Positions 9,829 to 36,013 of a stretch of 47,928 nucleotides of DNA are shown here, piece after piece. The stretch covers positions 1-47,928 of the forward strand of contig JAIEPJ010000172.1 in the NCBI GenBank assembly GCA_019749835.1, given 5' to 3'. The translations under genes were made by a program, and so were the position numbers. This stretch comes from Phreatobacter sp. (GTDB taxonomy: Bacteria > Pseudomonadota > Alphaproteobacteria > Rhizobiales > Phreatobacteraceae). The notes beneath the pieces are model-generated. The model was not told the origin of the DNA. It saw nothing but the letters and a program-made list of their open reading frames with translations, and did no database searches. Position 1 is the stretch's first letter; each line of letters opens with the position of its first letter.

Positions 9829-12141
9829 ATGGCGTTCGTTCAGGGCAAGTCATCGAGCGACATGATGCGCGAGTTGCCCGTCGAAGTTTATGTTTCGATG
9901 GTCGACTCCCTCTACGAGGATGTGCGCTCGCTGCTGCTCGGCGTGGTCGCCGCCCTGGCCGGAACGATCTATACGGCGCACCTGACCGGCCATCCGCTCC
10001 TGATCGCGTTTCCCTTCGCCATCGTGCTCATCGGCTTCGTGCGCACCCTGAGGATGGTCGCCTATCGGCGCGTGCGAGCCGACGTCCTGACCTATGAACA
10101 GGCGCTTCGCTGGGAGCGCGAATACACGATCGGCGCCAATCTCCTGGTCTTCACAATCGGCCTGTGGTGCTTCGCGACCTTCAACCTGACCCAGTCCATG
10201 GCCGCCCACCTGTTCTGCGTCTCGGTGGCGCTGTCCTACATGGTCGGGGTCACCGGCCGTAATTTCGCCAACGGACCCTTCGTCGACAACCAGATCGCCC
10301 TGCTTTGCGCGCCGCTGGTGGTGGGCATGATGATGACCGGCGTCTGGGACTACATGGTCCTTGCCTGTTTCGCGATCCCCTTCTTCGGCAGCGTGCGCAG
10401 CATTGCCCGCAGGCTCCGCGAGATCCTCCTCAACGCCATCATCGCCAAGCGCGACGTGTCTCTGCTCGCAGACCGCTTCGATACCGCCCTCAACAACATG
10501 CCGCACGGCCTCGCCATGTTCGACGCCGAGGGTCGCCTCGTGGTGGTGAACCGGCGCTGGGCTGAAATTCTGCCGCTCGATCCCGACAGCCTGGCGCAGG
10601 GCGCCCGCGCCGAGGCGATCGTCGCCGCCTATGTCGATCTTGGTATCCTCGGCGAGCGTGACGCCGGCCGGGTCCTCGATGCGGTGGCACGGCGCGTCCA
10701 TGGGCTGGCGCGCGAGCAATTCGAGCTCCAGGCCAATGGCTGCAATGTCGATCTGACCTTCCAGCCGATGGAGACGGGCGGTCTTGTCGTTGCCATCGAG
10801 GACATCACCGAAAAGCGCCGCACCGAGGCGCGGATCGCCCATATGGCGCGCCACGATGCACTCACCGGCCTGCCGAACCGCTCGCTGTTCCATGAGCGTC
10901 TGGAAACGGCCCTTGCCATGACCACCGACGAGGACATGCTCGCGGTGCTGTTCGTCGATCTCGATCATTTCCAGCAGGTCAACGACACGCTCGGCCACAC
11001 GGCCGGCGATGCGCTCCTTGTGGAAGTCGCCGACCGGCTGCGCTTCGCGGTGGGCGAGAACGACGTGGTCGCCCGTTTTGGTGCCGACGAGTTCGTCATC
11101 CTCCAGAACGGCGCGCGCAGCGTCAACGACGTCACGACGCTGGCCGCGCGGATCATCGAGACCATTGCCGACATCGTGCAGATCAACGACAAGCCGATCG
11201 CCAGTGGCGCGTCGGTCGGTATCGCGCTGGCGCCGCGCGACGGGCGTGAGCCGGATCAATTGCTGAAGAGTGCCGACATGGCGCTCAGCCGCGCCAAGGC
11301 GGGTGGCCGCGGCATCCTGCATTTCTACGAAGAGGAAATGGATCATCAGGCGCAGGCGCGCCGGGCAATCGAGATGGACTTGCGCAAGGCGATCCAGAAC
11401 GAGGATCTGGCGGTCTATTTCCAGCCCATGCTCGATCTCAAGTCGCTGACCATCTCGACCTGCGAGGCCCTCGTCCGCTGGCCACACCGCGTCCGCGGCA
11501 TGATTTCCCCGGCGGAGTTCATCCCGATCGCCGAGGAAACCGGGCTTGTCATCGAGCTCGGCCGTCAGGTGCTGCGCAAGGCCTGCCGGGCCTGCGTCGC
11601 CTGGCCCGACCGGATCCGCGTCTCGGTCAACCTGTCCTCCGTCCAGTTCGAACGAGACGACGTTGTCGCTCTGGTCGCCGAGACCCTGAGGACGACCGGG
11701 CTTGACCCCGACCGCCTCGAACTCGAGATCACCGAGACCCTGCTGCTGCAGGACTCGGAGGGTGTTCTCTCCGTCCTGACGCAGTTGCGGGCGATGGGTG
11801 TCAGGCTGGCACTCGACGATTTCGGCACGGGCTATTCAAGCCTGAGCTATCTGCACAAGTTCCCTCTGGACAAGGTGAAGATCGACCGCTCCTTCGTCCG
11901 CAACATCACCAGCGACCGCAAGGCCGCCAAGCTGCTGCGCGGCGTGACGCGGCTGGGCTCGGAACTCGGCCTGTCGGTTGTCGTCGAAGGCGTCGAGACG
12001 CTGGAACAACTGAAGCTGATCGACGCGCCGGGTGTCGTCAGCGAGGTTCAGGGCTTCGTCCTCAGCCCCGCCATCCCCGATGACCAGCTGCGGGCCCTGA
12101 TGGGTCGATCCGGCAAGGATCTTCTGGCGCGCGCCGCCTGA
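9829..12141 (+). CDS. Membrane PAS-GGDEF-EAL protein (c-di-GMP turnover)
   Basis: About 770 residues. Order: a hydrophobic N-terminal sensor region of several helices (about residues 30-200), a PAS domain (about 220-335, NNMPHGLAMFDAEGRLVVVN), GGDEF (about 345-510) and EAL (about 525-765). The GGDEF signature reads GADEF at 11080-11094 (residues 418-422), and the upstream I-site RxxD is replaced by GEND, so cyclase activity and product inhibition are doubtful. The EAL domain looks complete: CEALVRW, ELEITET, LDDFGTGYSSLSYL, KIDRSFV, VVVEGVET. A phosphodiesterase, possibly with GTP-tuned GGDEF, is the best guess. The start is uncertain: TTG 9748, ATG 9829 and ATG 9862 are all in frame with weak ribosome-binding sites. 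Confidence 0.9.
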   Translation: MAFVQGKSSSDMMRELPVEVYVSMVDSLYEDVRSLLLGVVAALAGTIYTAHLTGHPLLIAFPFAIVLIGFVRTLRMVAYRRVRADVLTYEQALRWEREYTIGANLLVFTIGLWCFATFNLTQSMAAHLFCVSVALSYMVGVTGRNFANGPFVDNQIALLCAPLVVGMMMTGVWDYMVLACFAIPFFGSVRSIARRLREILLNAIIAKRDVSLLADRFDTALNNMPHGLAMFDAEGRLVVVNRRWAEILPLDPDSLAQGARAEAIVAAYVDLGILGERDAGRVLDAVARRVHGLAREQFELQANGCNVDLTFQPMETGGLVVAIEDITEKRRTEARIAHMARHDALTGLPNRSLFHERLETALAMTTDEDMLAVLFVDLDHFQQVNDTLGHTAGDALLVEVADRLRFAVGENDVVARFGADEFVILQNGARSVNDVTTLAARIIETIADIVQINDKPIASGASVGIALAPRDGREPDQLLKSADMALSRAKAGGRGILHFYEEEMDHQAQARRAIEMDLRKAIQNEDLAVYFQPMLDLKSLTISTCEALVRWPHRVRGMISPAEFIPIAEETGLVIELGRQVLRKACRACVAWPDRIRVSVNLSSVQFERDDVVALVAETLRTTGLDPDRLELEITETLLLQDSEGVLSVLTQLRAMGVRLALDDFGTGYSSLSYLHKFPLDKVKIDRSFVRNITSDRKAAKLLRGVTRLGSELGLSVVVEGVETLEQLKLIDAPGVVSEVQGFVLSPAIPDDQLRALMGRSGKDLLARAA

Positions 12142-12504
12142 AATCCGGAAGCAATACTGACGTTACGTCATCGGTATTCACACCAAAGACTTCCAGCGGG
12201 TTGAAGGCCACCCCTCTGCGTCTGCCGGTAGCAGAAGGGCTTTGCGCTGCACCGCGACCGGGACTGACGGCGCTGGCGCGGGTCCGTTGCGGAAAAATTG
12301 AATCTCAGGATCGCGAATTCTCCGCGAAGTCGCAAGGTTCATGCTGCAAGACGGCTGTTTAGATCCCGTTGATCCCCGTTTCCATCACGACGCGCCGCCG
12401 TGCTGTTGCCGCGGCCATGCCGCGATGCGGCAGAGTAGAGACACGGCGCCGAGGGCGGTATCATCATAACGATCATTGTATTTAACTGCGTTTCTGCGAA
12501 CGCA

Positions 12505-12519
12505 TTAACGATGATTTAA
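12505..12519 (+). promoter_or_regulatory. CtrA box 1 (TTAA-N7-TTAA)
   Basis: TTAACGATGATTTAA at 12505-12519, followed by C, is a perfect TTAA-N7-TTAAC site, the full consensus of the alphaproteobacterial cell-cycle regulator CtrA. It lies 86 nt before the chosen start of the FeeM-like gene. CtrA is known to bind such direct repeats and to activate or repress depending on position relative to the promoter. Confidence 0.75.
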
Positions 12520-12537
12520 CCAAACGCTTCCCACCGG

Positions 12538-12552
12538 TTAAAAAAGCATTAA
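12538..12552 (+). promoter_or_regulatory. CtrA box 2 (TTAA-N7-TTAA)
   Basis: TTAAAAAAGCATTAA at 12538-12552, followed by C, is a second perfect box exactly 33 bp downstream of the first, about three helical turns, so both would face the same side of the DNA. It ends 52 nt before ATG 12605, a position compatible with overlap of a -35 element as in CtrA-activated promoters. Confidence 0.75.
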
Positions 12553-12604
12553 CATCGACCTCACGTTAGCAGCGGGTGTGAACGCTTCTCGTGGGGCATG
12601 GCAG

Positions 12605-13336
12605 ATGACGACGGTGAATGCCGAAGGCTCGTTTTCACGGAACGTCGCCGATCTCATCGGCCGGATCGCCTACCGGCGGATCCAGTCTGACGAGGACCGC
12701 CGCGCCGTTTTTCGTCTGAGATACGAGTGCTATCTGCGCGAGGGTGCGATCGCGCCGAACGAGACGGGCCTGTTCGAGGATGATTTCGACAGCGCTCCCA
12801 ACGTCTCGATCTTCGGCCTCTATATCGATGGCGTCCTGGCGAGTTCCATCCGTGTGCACGTGGCGACAGCGGACATGCCTTTCGCGCCCGCCCTGGCCGT
12901 TTTCGGTGACATCCTCGGCTCCCGCCTTGCCGCCGGCGAGACCATCGTCGACCCGACCCGCTTCGTCGTGGACCATGAACTCTCCCGGCTCTACCCGGGG
13001 CTGCCCTATGCGACCGTGCGCATGGGCATGCTGGCCTCCGAACATGCCGAGGCAGACTATGCCCTCGCGACGGTCAGGACCGAGCACCGGGCCTTCTACC
13101 GCCGCCTGCTGTTCATGGAACCGGTGGGCGAGCCGCGCCTCTATCCGAACCTGAAGAACCCGATCAATCTGATGGGTGTGTCCTTTCCGCTGATGCGGCA
13201 AAGGGTCTACACTCGCTATCCGTTCATGGCGTCGACGCGGGACGAGCAGGAGCGTCTGTTCGGTCCGCGCCGCCCTCGCGCCCCCCGGCGCGACCATGTC
13301 GCGGTGTCGGTGGCGGGAGAAGCCGCCGCCGCCTGA
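12605..13336 (+). CDS. N-acyl amino acid synthase FeeM / autoinducer-synthase-like protein
   Basis: A 243-residue cytosolic protein of GNAT-like fold. The N-terminal part resembles acyl-homoserine-lactone synthases and FeeM: RAVFRLRYECYLREG, then EDDFDSAPNVSIFGLYIDG and SSIRVHVAT correspond to the conserved Arg, the acidic D-x-D-like cluster and the Arg strand of that superfamily. Later regions (DPTRFVVDHELSRLYPGLPY, AEADYALATVR) fit the FeeM catalytic core as I know it. Expected chemistry is acyl transfer from acyl-ACP to an amino group; the product is unknown. ATG 12605 is chosen (GGGG upstream, downstream of both CtrA boxes); GTG 12578 is an in-frame alternative. The promoter carries two CtrA boxes, and a small gene follows after 19 nt. 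No LuxR-type receptor is nearby. Confidence 0.65.
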   Translation: MTTVNAEGSFSRNVADLIGRIAYRRIQSDEDRRAVFRLRYECYLREGAIAPNETGLFEDDFDSAPNVSIFGLYIDGVLASSIRVHVATADMPFAPALAVFGDILGSRLAAGETIVDPTRFVVDHELSRLYPGLPYATVRMGMLASEHAEADYALATVRTEHRAFYRRLLFMEPVGEPRLYPNLKNPINLMGVSFPLMRQRVYTRYPFMASTRDEQERLFGPRRPRAPRRDHVAVSVAGEAAAA

Positions 13337-13355: not shown

Positions 13356-13598
13356 ATGAGATCCGGCAGCCGCAAACCTTTCGACGCGTTTCGCCGCGCG
13401 CCAGGATCGGGAAACCGGGCCTCCGACGGCTGGAAACGCGAAACCTTCGTGCTGCCGCGGGATGCGGCCCGCATCAAGGCGCGGGAAATCCTGGATCGCT
13501 TTCCCCGCGCCGCCTATCTGACCGAGGTCGAGTTCTGGCGTGAACTGGAGGACGGACGCATCGAGTTCACGATGCGTCGCCTGCCGACGTCGGACTGA
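13356..13598 (+). CDS. Small hypothetical protein, likely cotranscribed with FeeM-like gene
   Basis: An 80-residue basic protein starting at ATG 13356 with an excellent GGGAGG seven nt upstream, 19 nt after the FeeM-like gene, so cotranscription is very likely. The N-terminal third is rich in Arg and Ser (MRSGSRKPFDAFRR). The rest (WKRETFVLPRDAARIKAREILDRFPRAAYLTEVEFWRELEDGRIEFTMRRLP) reads like a small alpha/beta domain. No signal peptide, membrane helix or known catalytic motif is seen. I do not recognise the family. Its constant position would suggest a helper of the synthase or simply a passenger gene. It is convergent with the YodC-like gene (7 nt between stops). Confidence 0.8.
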   Translation: MRSGSRKPFDAFRRAPGSGNRASDGWKRETFVLPRDAARIKAREILDRFPRAAYLTEVEFWRELEDGRIEFTMRRLPTSD

Positions 13599-13605
13599 GG
13601 GCCGC

Positions 13606-13848
13606 TCAGGCGGCAGCCTCTTCCTCTTCCTCGTCCTTTTCGCCGTCTTCGTCGCCGTCCTCGTCGTCCTCGCCCTCTTCCTCTTCGAGGTCGATGGCCT
13701 GGAGGGCGACGACGGGAATGGCCTCACGGAAGAGGTCGCCCTCTTCGCCGAGCCAGATGCAGGTCGCCTCGTCGTCGCTGATGGCGGTGACCGTCAGCGC
13801 CTGGCCGCCGGATTTCAAGGTCACGATATCGCCGGGTGTGATCGTCAT
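13606..13848 (-). CDS. YodC-like DUF2158 protein with acidic tail
   Basis: An 80-residue protein. ATG 13848 has a strong AGGAGG just upstream, so earlier in-frame starts are rejected. Residues 1-50 (MTITPGDIVTLKSGGQALTV...CIWLGEEGDLFREAIPVVALQ) match the small YodC/DUF2158 beta-barrel domain: a GDIV-L-SGG start, then an xxCxW strand. The last 27 or so residues are almost entirely Glu and Asp, ending EEEEEAAA, which is not part of the usual domain. Function unknown; the domain resembles small SH3-like barrels. The acidic tail suggests binding of a basic partner or nucleic-acid mimicry, which is inference. Its leader contains two alternative hairpins (13902-13938). Confidence 0.85.
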   Translation of the reverse strand: MTITPGDIVTLKSGGQALTVTAISDDEATCIWLGEEGDLFREAIPVVALQAIDLEEEEGEDDEDGDEDGEKDEEEEEAAA

Positions 13849-13901
13849 GGGTGCCTCCTGTGGTGCGAGGCAAACCCTAGCGGGGCTCCGTGACGGGCCC
13901 A

Positions 13902-35303: not shown

Positions 35304-35849
35304 TCAGGCGGCGGCCGACAGGTCATCGCCCGTCCAGCGGCGCCGTGCCGCCAGAACCACGTCATGGGCGAAGAGCGACAGGTGGCCGGCAGTGATGGCC
35401 GCGGACAGCGCCATGCCGAAAAGCCAGTAGCCCGGCATGGACGAGAGCGCATTGGAGGGCGAGGGAATGCGCGAGGCCTGGTCGAGCAGCGGCTGCGCCA
35501 CAACCGACAGGACGACGAGGCCGGCGACGCCGGCCATCACCACGGCGGTGGAGCGGATATTGGCGAGGGGCGTGCTCGGCCCCATCAGCGGGCGAAGGGC
35601 GCCGACCAGCACGAGGGTCAGGACGACGGCCCAGGAGACCGCGTGCATTCCGGCATAGACCTGCGCCTCGAACAGGCGGTTGGCCGCCAGCAGCACGTCC
35701 ACCCGGGCGATTAGCGTGTCGGGTGACATCCAGAAGATGGCGAGGCGGTAGTTCGGCACGGGATCGATCAGGCCCCAGCCCGTTGTCAAGGCGGCGAAGC
35801 CGGCCGCTGCGAGATAGATCCCGCAGAACGTGATGACGAGGCGTCGCAT
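35304..35849 (-). CDS. Hypothetical membrane protein with four helices
   Basis: A 181-residue protein. ATG 35849 has GGGAGA five nt upstream, so the upstream codons are dropped. Hydrophobic helices lie at about 3-22, 65-87, 100-118 and 140-160, with an extracytoplasmic loop after the first (LIDPVPNYRLAIFWMSPDTLIARVD). The C-terminus is basic (LAARRRWTGDD). I do not recognise the family. It is convergent with the histidine kinase (15 nt between stops) and divergent from an NTF2-like gene, and a perfect CtrA box lies 64 nt before its start. Confidence 0.75.
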   Translation of the reverse strand: MRRLVITFCGIYLAAAGFAALTTGWGLIDPVPNYRLAIFWMSPDTLIARVDVLLAANRLFEAQVYAGMHAVSWAVVLTLVLVGALRPLMGPSTPLANIRSTAVVMAGVAGLVVLSVVAQPLLDQASRIPSPSNALSSMPGYWLFGMALSAAITAGHLSLFAHDVVLAARRRWTGDDLSAAA

Positions 35850-35912
35850 GCCATTCTCCCGCAGTCCCCGCCGGGACCCTAGGAGCCGCACCCGGTGCCG
35901 GCAACGATAAGG

Positions 35913-35927
35913 TTAAGAATTGGTTAA
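35913..35927. promoter_or_regulatory. CtrA box in the divergent region
   Basis: TTAAGAATTGGTTAA at 35913-35927, followed by C, is a perfect TTAA-N7-TTAAC CtrA site. It is 64 nt upstream of the membrane protein start (35849) and 87 nt upstream of the NTF2-like start (36014), so it could act on either gene. Confidence 0.65.
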
Positions 35928-36013
35928 CGGCGATGCCCGTATCGGGCTTTCGGGGGAATTGCCGCAGCGGCTGACGGGCCTAGCCTGGGGTCGACAGAAC
36001 GGGAGAGTGCTCC

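Follow-up and report, generated by a model that had tools for sequence, protein, structure and literature searches.

Predicted CtrA sites before a FeeM-type acyltransferase gene that is paired with a GGDEF-EAL gene in Phreatobacter and other Hyphomicrobiales

The window analysed here, a whole contig (C316) of 47,928 bases, belongs to a draft genome of 4.43 Mb in 326 contigs that is 85.3% complete, and it is assigned to a Phreatobacter-like member of the Hyphomicrobiales. It carries a gene for a FeeM-type acyltransferase, preceded by two matches to the TTAA-N7-TTAAC motif of the cell-cycle regulator CtrA and, further upstream on the same strand, by a PAS-GGDEF-EAL gene (Table 1). The ATG at 12605 is the likely start codon of the FeeM-type gene because all 12 proteins of the genus share M, T and N at positions 1, 3 and 5. 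The hydrophobic N-terminal region of the PAS-GGDEF-EAL protein gives it, by eye, the look of a membrane-bound protein. Directly after the FeeM-type gene lies a short ORF which, among the representative loci described below, occurs in Phreatobacter only, and this is followed on the opposite strand by a gene for a DUF2158 protein whose tail is acidic.

Table 1. Coordinates of genes, putative regulatory sites and other features in the window
Feature	Position	Strand	Remarks
PAS-GGDEF-EAL gene	9832-12141	+	PAS_7, GGDEF and EAL domains; mechanical ORF from 9748, start uncertain
Conserved promoter block	12502-12553	+	Spans boxes 1 and 2 with a GCTT[T/C]CCA-like spacer; invariant columns in 12 genomes
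Putative CtrA box 1	12505-12520	+	TTAACGATGATTTAAC; exact match to TTAA-N7-TTAAC; perfect in 12/12 genus genomes
Candidate -35	12516-12521		TTAACC; 3′ half of box 1 and the next base
Putative CtrA box 2	12538-12553	+	TTAAAAAAGCATTAAC; exact match to TTAA-N7-TTAAC; perfect in 6 genus genomes, 1/9 mismatch in 6
Candidate -10	12539-12544		TAAAAA; overlapped by the 5′ half of box 2
FeeM-type acyltransferase gene	12605-13336	+	243 aa; distant AHL-synthase relative; PF21926, 155.9 bits, E 9.7e-46
ORF after the FeeM-type gene	13356-13598	+	80 aa
DUF2158 protein gene	13612-13854	-	Acidic tail
ORF downstream of the third site	35304-35891	-	195 aa; no Pfam match
Third TTAA-N7-TTAAC site	35912-35928		Perfect match

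Several sets of genomes are used for comparison. The genus set consists of 12 genomes, which are the whole sample of the family and represent a single genus. The order sample comprises 150 evenly drawn genomes of the Hyphomicrobiales, 145 of them outside the genus. Named genomes are represented by the loci of the best 80 of 288 relatives of the FeeM-type gene, from which 36 representatives, two of them Phreatobacter, were picked at 75% identity. Six genus loci within the named set (L027 to L032) are also part of the genus set, and the counts from these two sets are thus not independent.

The match of the acyltransferase to the FeeM family compares with a curated cut-off of 27 bits, and the Pfam scan found neither Autoind_synth (PF00765) nor any other family besides PF21926 at E <= 1; a search of NCBIfam returned a single match, far under its cut-off. 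When the single sequence was compared with solved structures nothing meaningful was found for this protein. A profile of 32 sequences has EsaI as its best match among solved structures (E = 3e-4), followed by three more AHL synthases (E 0.035-2); the solved structure of FeeM itself, which we take to be 2G0B, is not among these four matches of the family profile. All 32 aligned rows share seven residues (R39, Y43, D59, D62, R83, D116 and R119), whose counterparts in the EsaI alignment are R, F, D, D, R, E and R. The catalytic residues of LuxI are presumably R24, F28, W34, D45, D48, R68, E97 and R100, and the FeeM-type proteins have no conserved tryptophan at the position of W34. Profile comparison with three LuxI fragments from the genus is colinear but weak. 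The original prediction had described the gene as autoinducer-synthase-like, which holds only at the level of the superfamily; membership of LuxI is not supported by the Pfam scan, in which PF21926 is matched and Autoind_synth is not.

FeeM is reportedly an N-acyl amino acid synthase (work attributed to Van Wagoner and Clardy, 2006), and the protein encoded in the window shares its Pfam family with FeeM, so that a like activity is predicted from the family match. The enzyme would take a fatty acyl group from acyl carrier protein and link it to an amino-acid-like amine, and a product of the N-acyl-amino-acid type is moderately favoured. Each of the 12 genus genomes holds one orthologue (57-100% identity), and the nearest named records are Phreatobacter metagenome-assembled genomes (L027, 94% identity across the protein). 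Outside the genus the distribution is patchy: a FeeM-type match occurs in 19 genomes of the order sample, five of them in the genus, and clear orthologues (E <= 4.2e-38) are found in 12 of the 145 others. A class-wide search of 385 genomes gave a match in eight, two of which belong to the order, and 13 plasmid records hold a relative with less than 60% identity, some of them annotated as acyl-homoserine-lactone synthase or GNAT.

The FeeM-type gene is rarely found without the c-di-GMP-related gene next to it. A GGDEF-EAL homologue adjoins it in 77 of the 80 named loci (the best 80 of 288), with one end separated by 47-461 bp from the point where the FeeM match begins; the two genes are on the same strand in 74 loci and on opposite strands, divergently arranged, in three (L033, L035 and L039). 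Two loci (L048 and L088) have no such neighbour, and in L104 there is no room for one at the contig edge. Among the non-Phreatobacter representatives the gene is present in 33 of 34 (L048 being the one without), 32 times recognised through its N-terminal part and once, in L077, which is cut by the contig end, through its C-terminal part. A match to the N-terminal part was detected in 29 of the 150 genomes in the order sample; these include all 17 with a strong FeeM-type match, in which the two genes always adjoin, on the same contig and within about 3 kb. Mere carry-over of a shared neighbourhood was rejected as the cause of this pairing, since seven of the eight other window neighbours tested are confined to the two Phreatobacter representatives (labels by eye for the nudix, MoxR-like, 107-aa ORF and CCA transferase genes; also the 80-aa ORF, the DUF2158 gene and the FAA-hydrolase-like gene). 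The eighth, SDR-like by eye, is also matched in L034 and L090.

In an alignment of the GGDEF-EAL proteins (76 of 78 sequences after a length filter) the positions examined of the EAL signature, which marks c-di-GMP phosphodiesterases (EAL, N, E, DD, K and E), are invariant in all 76; the assignment of catalytic roles among these residues is our assumption. Within the GGDEF motif, the mark of diguanylate cyclases, the D and the E are likewise present in all 76, the first G in 71 and the second G in 69, the remaining seven, which include the window protein, having A. Some members of the subfamily occur without a FeeM-type gene, and seven of 12 such stretches (E <= 6.5e-19; the other five matches are weaker) were taken for comparison (L149 to L155). 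In all seven the neighbour is an enoyl-CoA hydratase-like gene (six by Pfam, L150 by tblastn), which suggests a theme of acyl metabolism for this GGDEF-EAL subfamily. Functional coupling of the acyltransferase to the GGDEF-EAL protein appears probable from this genomic context, and the enzyme and its neighbour would then act in one pathway, tying a lipid or a signal to c-di-GMP.

Whether such a product is a signal bears on how the locus is read. The enzyme may instead make a membrane amino-acid lipid, or acylate some other compound of the cell surface, at a time set by the cell cycle, and we rate this as a little short of an even prospect. It agrees with the Pfam family being that of FeeM and with the distribution of quorum-sensing genes in the genus, in which LuxR-type receptors occur in five of the 12 genomes, LuxI in four and neither in seven, against the FeeM-type gene in all 12. 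The conserved pairing with a c-di-GMP enzyme, however, suits signalling, and the solved relatives of the profile are AHL synthases. The production of an acyl signal is possible. If a signal is made, it is unlikely to be read in general by a receptor of the LuxR type because LuxR is found in only five genus genomes and the FeeM-type gene in every one; the GGDEF-EAL partner is, we infer, the obvious candidate.

The two boxes before the FeeM-type gene are exact matches whose starts are 33 bp apart, as the original prediction had it, the one amendment being that the second ends at 12553 and not at 12552. In the window the TTAA-N7-TTAAC pattern has five strand matches, corresponding to three distinct places, and zero matches were obtained in 100 dinucleotide shuffles of the window. 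The surroundings had also been described as AT-rich, and A+T is indeed 59% in 12470-12560 against 33% window-wide. In the source genome the pattern has 23 strand matches at 17 distinct places (a hand count) compared with three for the reversed pattern. Chance as the origin of the boxes was rejected on the window shuffles, on the genome-wide count against the reversed pattern and on the order-wide controls given below.

Conservation before orthologous genes had been proposed as a check, and both boxes precede the orthologue in all 12 genus genomes. With the loci oriented to the strand of the gene, box 1 is perfect throughout; box 2 is perfect in half of the genomes and departs from the motif by one of nine positions in the others, and the 33-bp spacing is kept in every case. 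When the 12 sequences are anchored on box 1, 15 of 19 columns are invariant in box 1 with its three preceding bases, nine of 17 in the spacer and eight of 16 in box 2; the flanks are poorly conserved (0/30, 1/27, 0/26 and 1/20 columns invariant).

Conservation extends to the wider order. Outside the genus, each of the 12 clear orthologues is preceded, within 500 bp of the match and with either strand accepted, by a site that departs from the motif at no more than one of nine positions; neither of two remote matches (E 2e-13 and 1.4e-11) has one in the same interval. In the named set the best 8-base core within 300 bp upstream was scored for 79 of the 80 loci (L104, at a contig edge, was left out), and in 76 of the 79 the best box differs from the core by no more than one base: 54 are perfect, 22 have one mismatch and the remaining three have two. 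Among the 36 representatives the corresponding numbers are 20, 14 and two. Shuffling of these 36 upstream regions (200 rounds) gave means of 0.12 perfect sites and 2.64 within one mismatch, with maxima of 2 and 8, and the controls, 177 regions upstream of further ORFs from these loci, have one perfect site and 14 with one mismatch; the A+T-rich controls (GC <= 0.58, n=28) have none and six, respectively. Inheritance confined to the genus was rejected as the cause of the boxes, as they are present before orthologues elsewhere in the order. The best of the class-wide matches from outside the order, L141, shows no box in 400 bp when one core mismatch is allowed.

Over 400 bp upstream, the GGDEF-EAL gene of the window shows no box of its own even with one core mismatch allowed. 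The upstream regions of the GGDEF-EAL genes in 29 representatives have no perfect box and 11 within one mismatch, a count that weighs against the reading favoured here. The seven stretches without a FeeM-type gene hold no perfect core box; in L149, L150 and L151 there is a one-mismatch site before the enoyl-CoA hydratase-like neighbour.

A third perfect site in the window, absent from the original prediction, lies upstream of an ORF on the minus strand (Table 1). Its core is found within one mismatch in 11 of 12 genus loci, nine of them perfect, and this site is therefore probably a further CtrA target, to judge by its conservation, with no function assigned to the ORF.

The regulator itself is encoded in 11 of the 12 genus genomes, as a protein with 93-94% identity to the search bait, a sequence that we take to be that of CtrA. 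In the source draft genome ctrA was not found (best match 41%), and ChpT (PF10090) is present. The gap is likely one of assembly because the window contig stops 12.6 kb upstream of the FeeM-type gene and ctrA lies 20.6-23.4 kb upstream of it in the nine genus genomes that have both on one contig; in G004 and G010 the two genes are on separate contigs. CtrA is also encoded in all 12 FeeM-bearing genomes of the order sample outside the genus. A general linkage of ctrA and the FeeM-type gene was rejected: in other families the two are on the same contig but at least 394 kb apart in four of the 12 genomes and on different contigs in eight. All 11 Phreatobacter loci compared (L113 to L123) keep a site with one core mismatch, GTAACCCTTCCTTAAC, about 373 bp upstream of ctrA, and CtrA autoregulation is likely.

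Elsewhere in the source genome, motif sites lie 17 bp from an ORF with a flagellar rod domain, 28 bp from one with a rod-binding domain and 61 bp from a HAMP-domain ORF. Twenty proteins beside motif sites, a subset of the neighbours, were scanned, and the remainder have unrelated domains or none; most are thus not typical CtrA targets, which counts against the CtrA reading. The conservation described above makes direct regulation of the FeeM-type gene by CtrA very likely all the same. Of the proposal that production of an acyl signal is placed under CtrA, the part that concerns control is well supported by conservation, and the part that concerns the signal is unproven, the gene being FeeM-type and not LuxI.

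Phosphorylated CtrA would bind both boxes in the promoter of the FeeM-type gene and switch it with the cell cycle, and binding at the two sites would be cooperative because 33 bp correspond to about three helical turns. A paired arrangement is not restricted to Phreatobacter. Loci mostly of Bradyrhizobium, Rhodopseudomonas and Afipia (L036, L037, L043, L068 and L081 among them) have an extra half site, TTAACC-N-TAA, at a distance of exactly 34 bp upstream from the main box. At offset -34, TTAA is found in 39 of 76 loci and, with Phreatobacter set aside, in 14 of 32 representatives; at other offsets outside the box the maximum is 12 of 76. Most of these 14 representatives have CTTTGC at -13. 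The 33-bp pair of Phreatobacter and the 34-bp half site elsewhere therefore make a layout of two predicted sites at 33-34 bp a feature of two groups.

The positions of the boxes relative to the candidate promoter elements suggest a mode of control. TTAACC-N17-TAAAA[A/T] is kept in all 12 genus genomes, with TAAAAA, without a final T, as the candidate -10 in eight of them; outside the genus no conserved -10 is apparent by eye some 17 bp beyond the box. In Phreatobacter, CtrA at box 1 on the -35 would activate the promoter and CtrA at box 2 on the -10 and start would limit it, and the two together would yield a pulse of expression. This dual activation and repression is the model that we prefer, if tentatively, on promoter geometry. 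The geometry resembles that of the hemE promoter Ps of Caulobacter crescentus, which likewise has two CtrA sites, at -35 and -10, which are cooperative there, as described in the cited portions of PMC11264516; it drives a different gene, its second site is TTAA-N7-CTAA, and the placement in Phreatobacter is deduced from spacing. The pilA promoter of the same species resembles the present one in its multiple CtrA sites, of which Site 2 lies 31 bp from Site 1, and its extra sites delay and limit expression and govern sensitivity to the CtrA level; unlike the FeeM-type gene, pilA has four CtrA sites and encodes no acyl synthase (PMC11264516, same portions).

Two simpler modes have to be weighed against this model. 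CtrA at one box may drive transcription while the second box merely boosts affinity, as would fit the Caulobacter data in which a full TTAA-N7-TTAA near the -35 accompanies activation by CtrA (PMC4287350, in the portions cited) and the upstream pilA sites that increase sensitivity to the CtrA level, although those same sites lower and delay output (PMC11264516). Such plain activation is possible if somewhat doubtful, the nearer box lying over the candidate -10 and start in Phreatobacter and no conserved -10 being seen downstream of that box. Alternatively CtrA is a repressor only, with the box nearest the gene over the -10 and expression following once CtrA is gone. If the CTTTGC at -13 of the Bradyrhizobium and Rhodopseudomonas type is taken as a -35, the main box has its 3′ half at about -10; Caulobacter half sites over the -10 accompany repression (PMC4287350, as above), and at hemE Ps repression is strongest with both sites intact (PMC11264516). 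Box 1 of Phreatobacter, however, places TTAACC at -35 spacing from TAAAA[A/T], which is an activator-like position relative to a start site that is itself predicted, and repression by itself is rather unlikely. That another protein with a TTAA-like motif reads the sites and CtrA is uninvolved is very improbable: CtrA binding is here a prediction and one-mismatch sites are commoner in A+T-rich promoters (six of 28 controls), but perfect cores precede 20 of 36 representatives against one of 177 controls, the same motif stands before ctrA and two flagellar-domain genes, and both spacing and half sites are kept in the genus.

The closest published parallel is found in Dinoroseobacter shibae, where CtrA sites are present at the genes for acyl-signal synthases of luxR2I2 and luxI3, two perfect ones preceding luxR2, and where expression of luxI2 and luxI3 is strongly reduced in ctrA, chpT and cckA mutants (PMC4046655, in the parts cited). 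Those synthases are of the LuxI type and have LuxR partners, unlike the FeeM-type enzyme, and a later model for the same organism connects CtrA, quorum sensing and c-di-GMP (PMC6473078, cited part). The former source describes CtrA sites before autoinducer synthase or binding genes as scattered in the Alphaproteobacteria and, in that part, as absent in Rhodopseudomonas, whereas the Rhodopseudomonas FeeM-type genes examined here (L036, L037 and L052) have a perfect core. TTAA-N7-TTAA has also been reported at promoters of Methylosinus sporium (PMC12403871, cited part). The literature searched, which takes in few subscription journals and excludes the supplementary tables of published CtrA studies, a possible place for such a target, held no paper joining CtrA with FeeM or an N-acyl amino acid synthase, none on an N-acyl amino acid synthase with GGDEF, none linking the CtrA regulon to an autoinducer and an acyltransferase, and none on Phreatobacter with CtrA. 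CtrA control of LuxI-type synthases is thus already published, and for the FeeM type no paper was found in that literature.

Overall, the explanation that accounts best for the locus, and that we regard as quite probable from comparative genomics, is that CtrA directly regulates an acyl-amino-acid-type synthase which is coupled to c-di-GMP turnover. The original observation of the boxes is right and stronger than had been claimed, and the conserved c-di-GMP partner gene, newly seen here, is judged more interesting than the discovery of the boxes. A more speculative extension, which we consider unlikely, is a loop apart from LuxI-LuxR in which a FeeM-type product timed by CtrA is sensed by the PAS-GGDEF-EAL protein, which would alter c-di-GMP; c-di-GMP would in turn feed back on the CckA-CtrA pathway. 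If true, such a loop would be a module common to those Hyphomicrobiales that have the gene pair, including the seven of 12 Phreatobacter genomes without LuxI and LuxR. CtrA control of the FeeM-type gene would itself enlarge the CtrA regulon of the Hyphomicrobiales by a conserved acyl-conjugate synthase that is paired with a c-di-GMP enzyme; in the cited part of PMC4046655 the control of LuxI-type genes by CtrA is scattered, whereas a box with at most one core mismatch stands before nearly all FeeM-type orthologues examined (76/79), those of Rhodopseudomonas included. The pairing opens a direct test of whether acyl conjugates report the state of the cell cycle by way of c-di-GMP.
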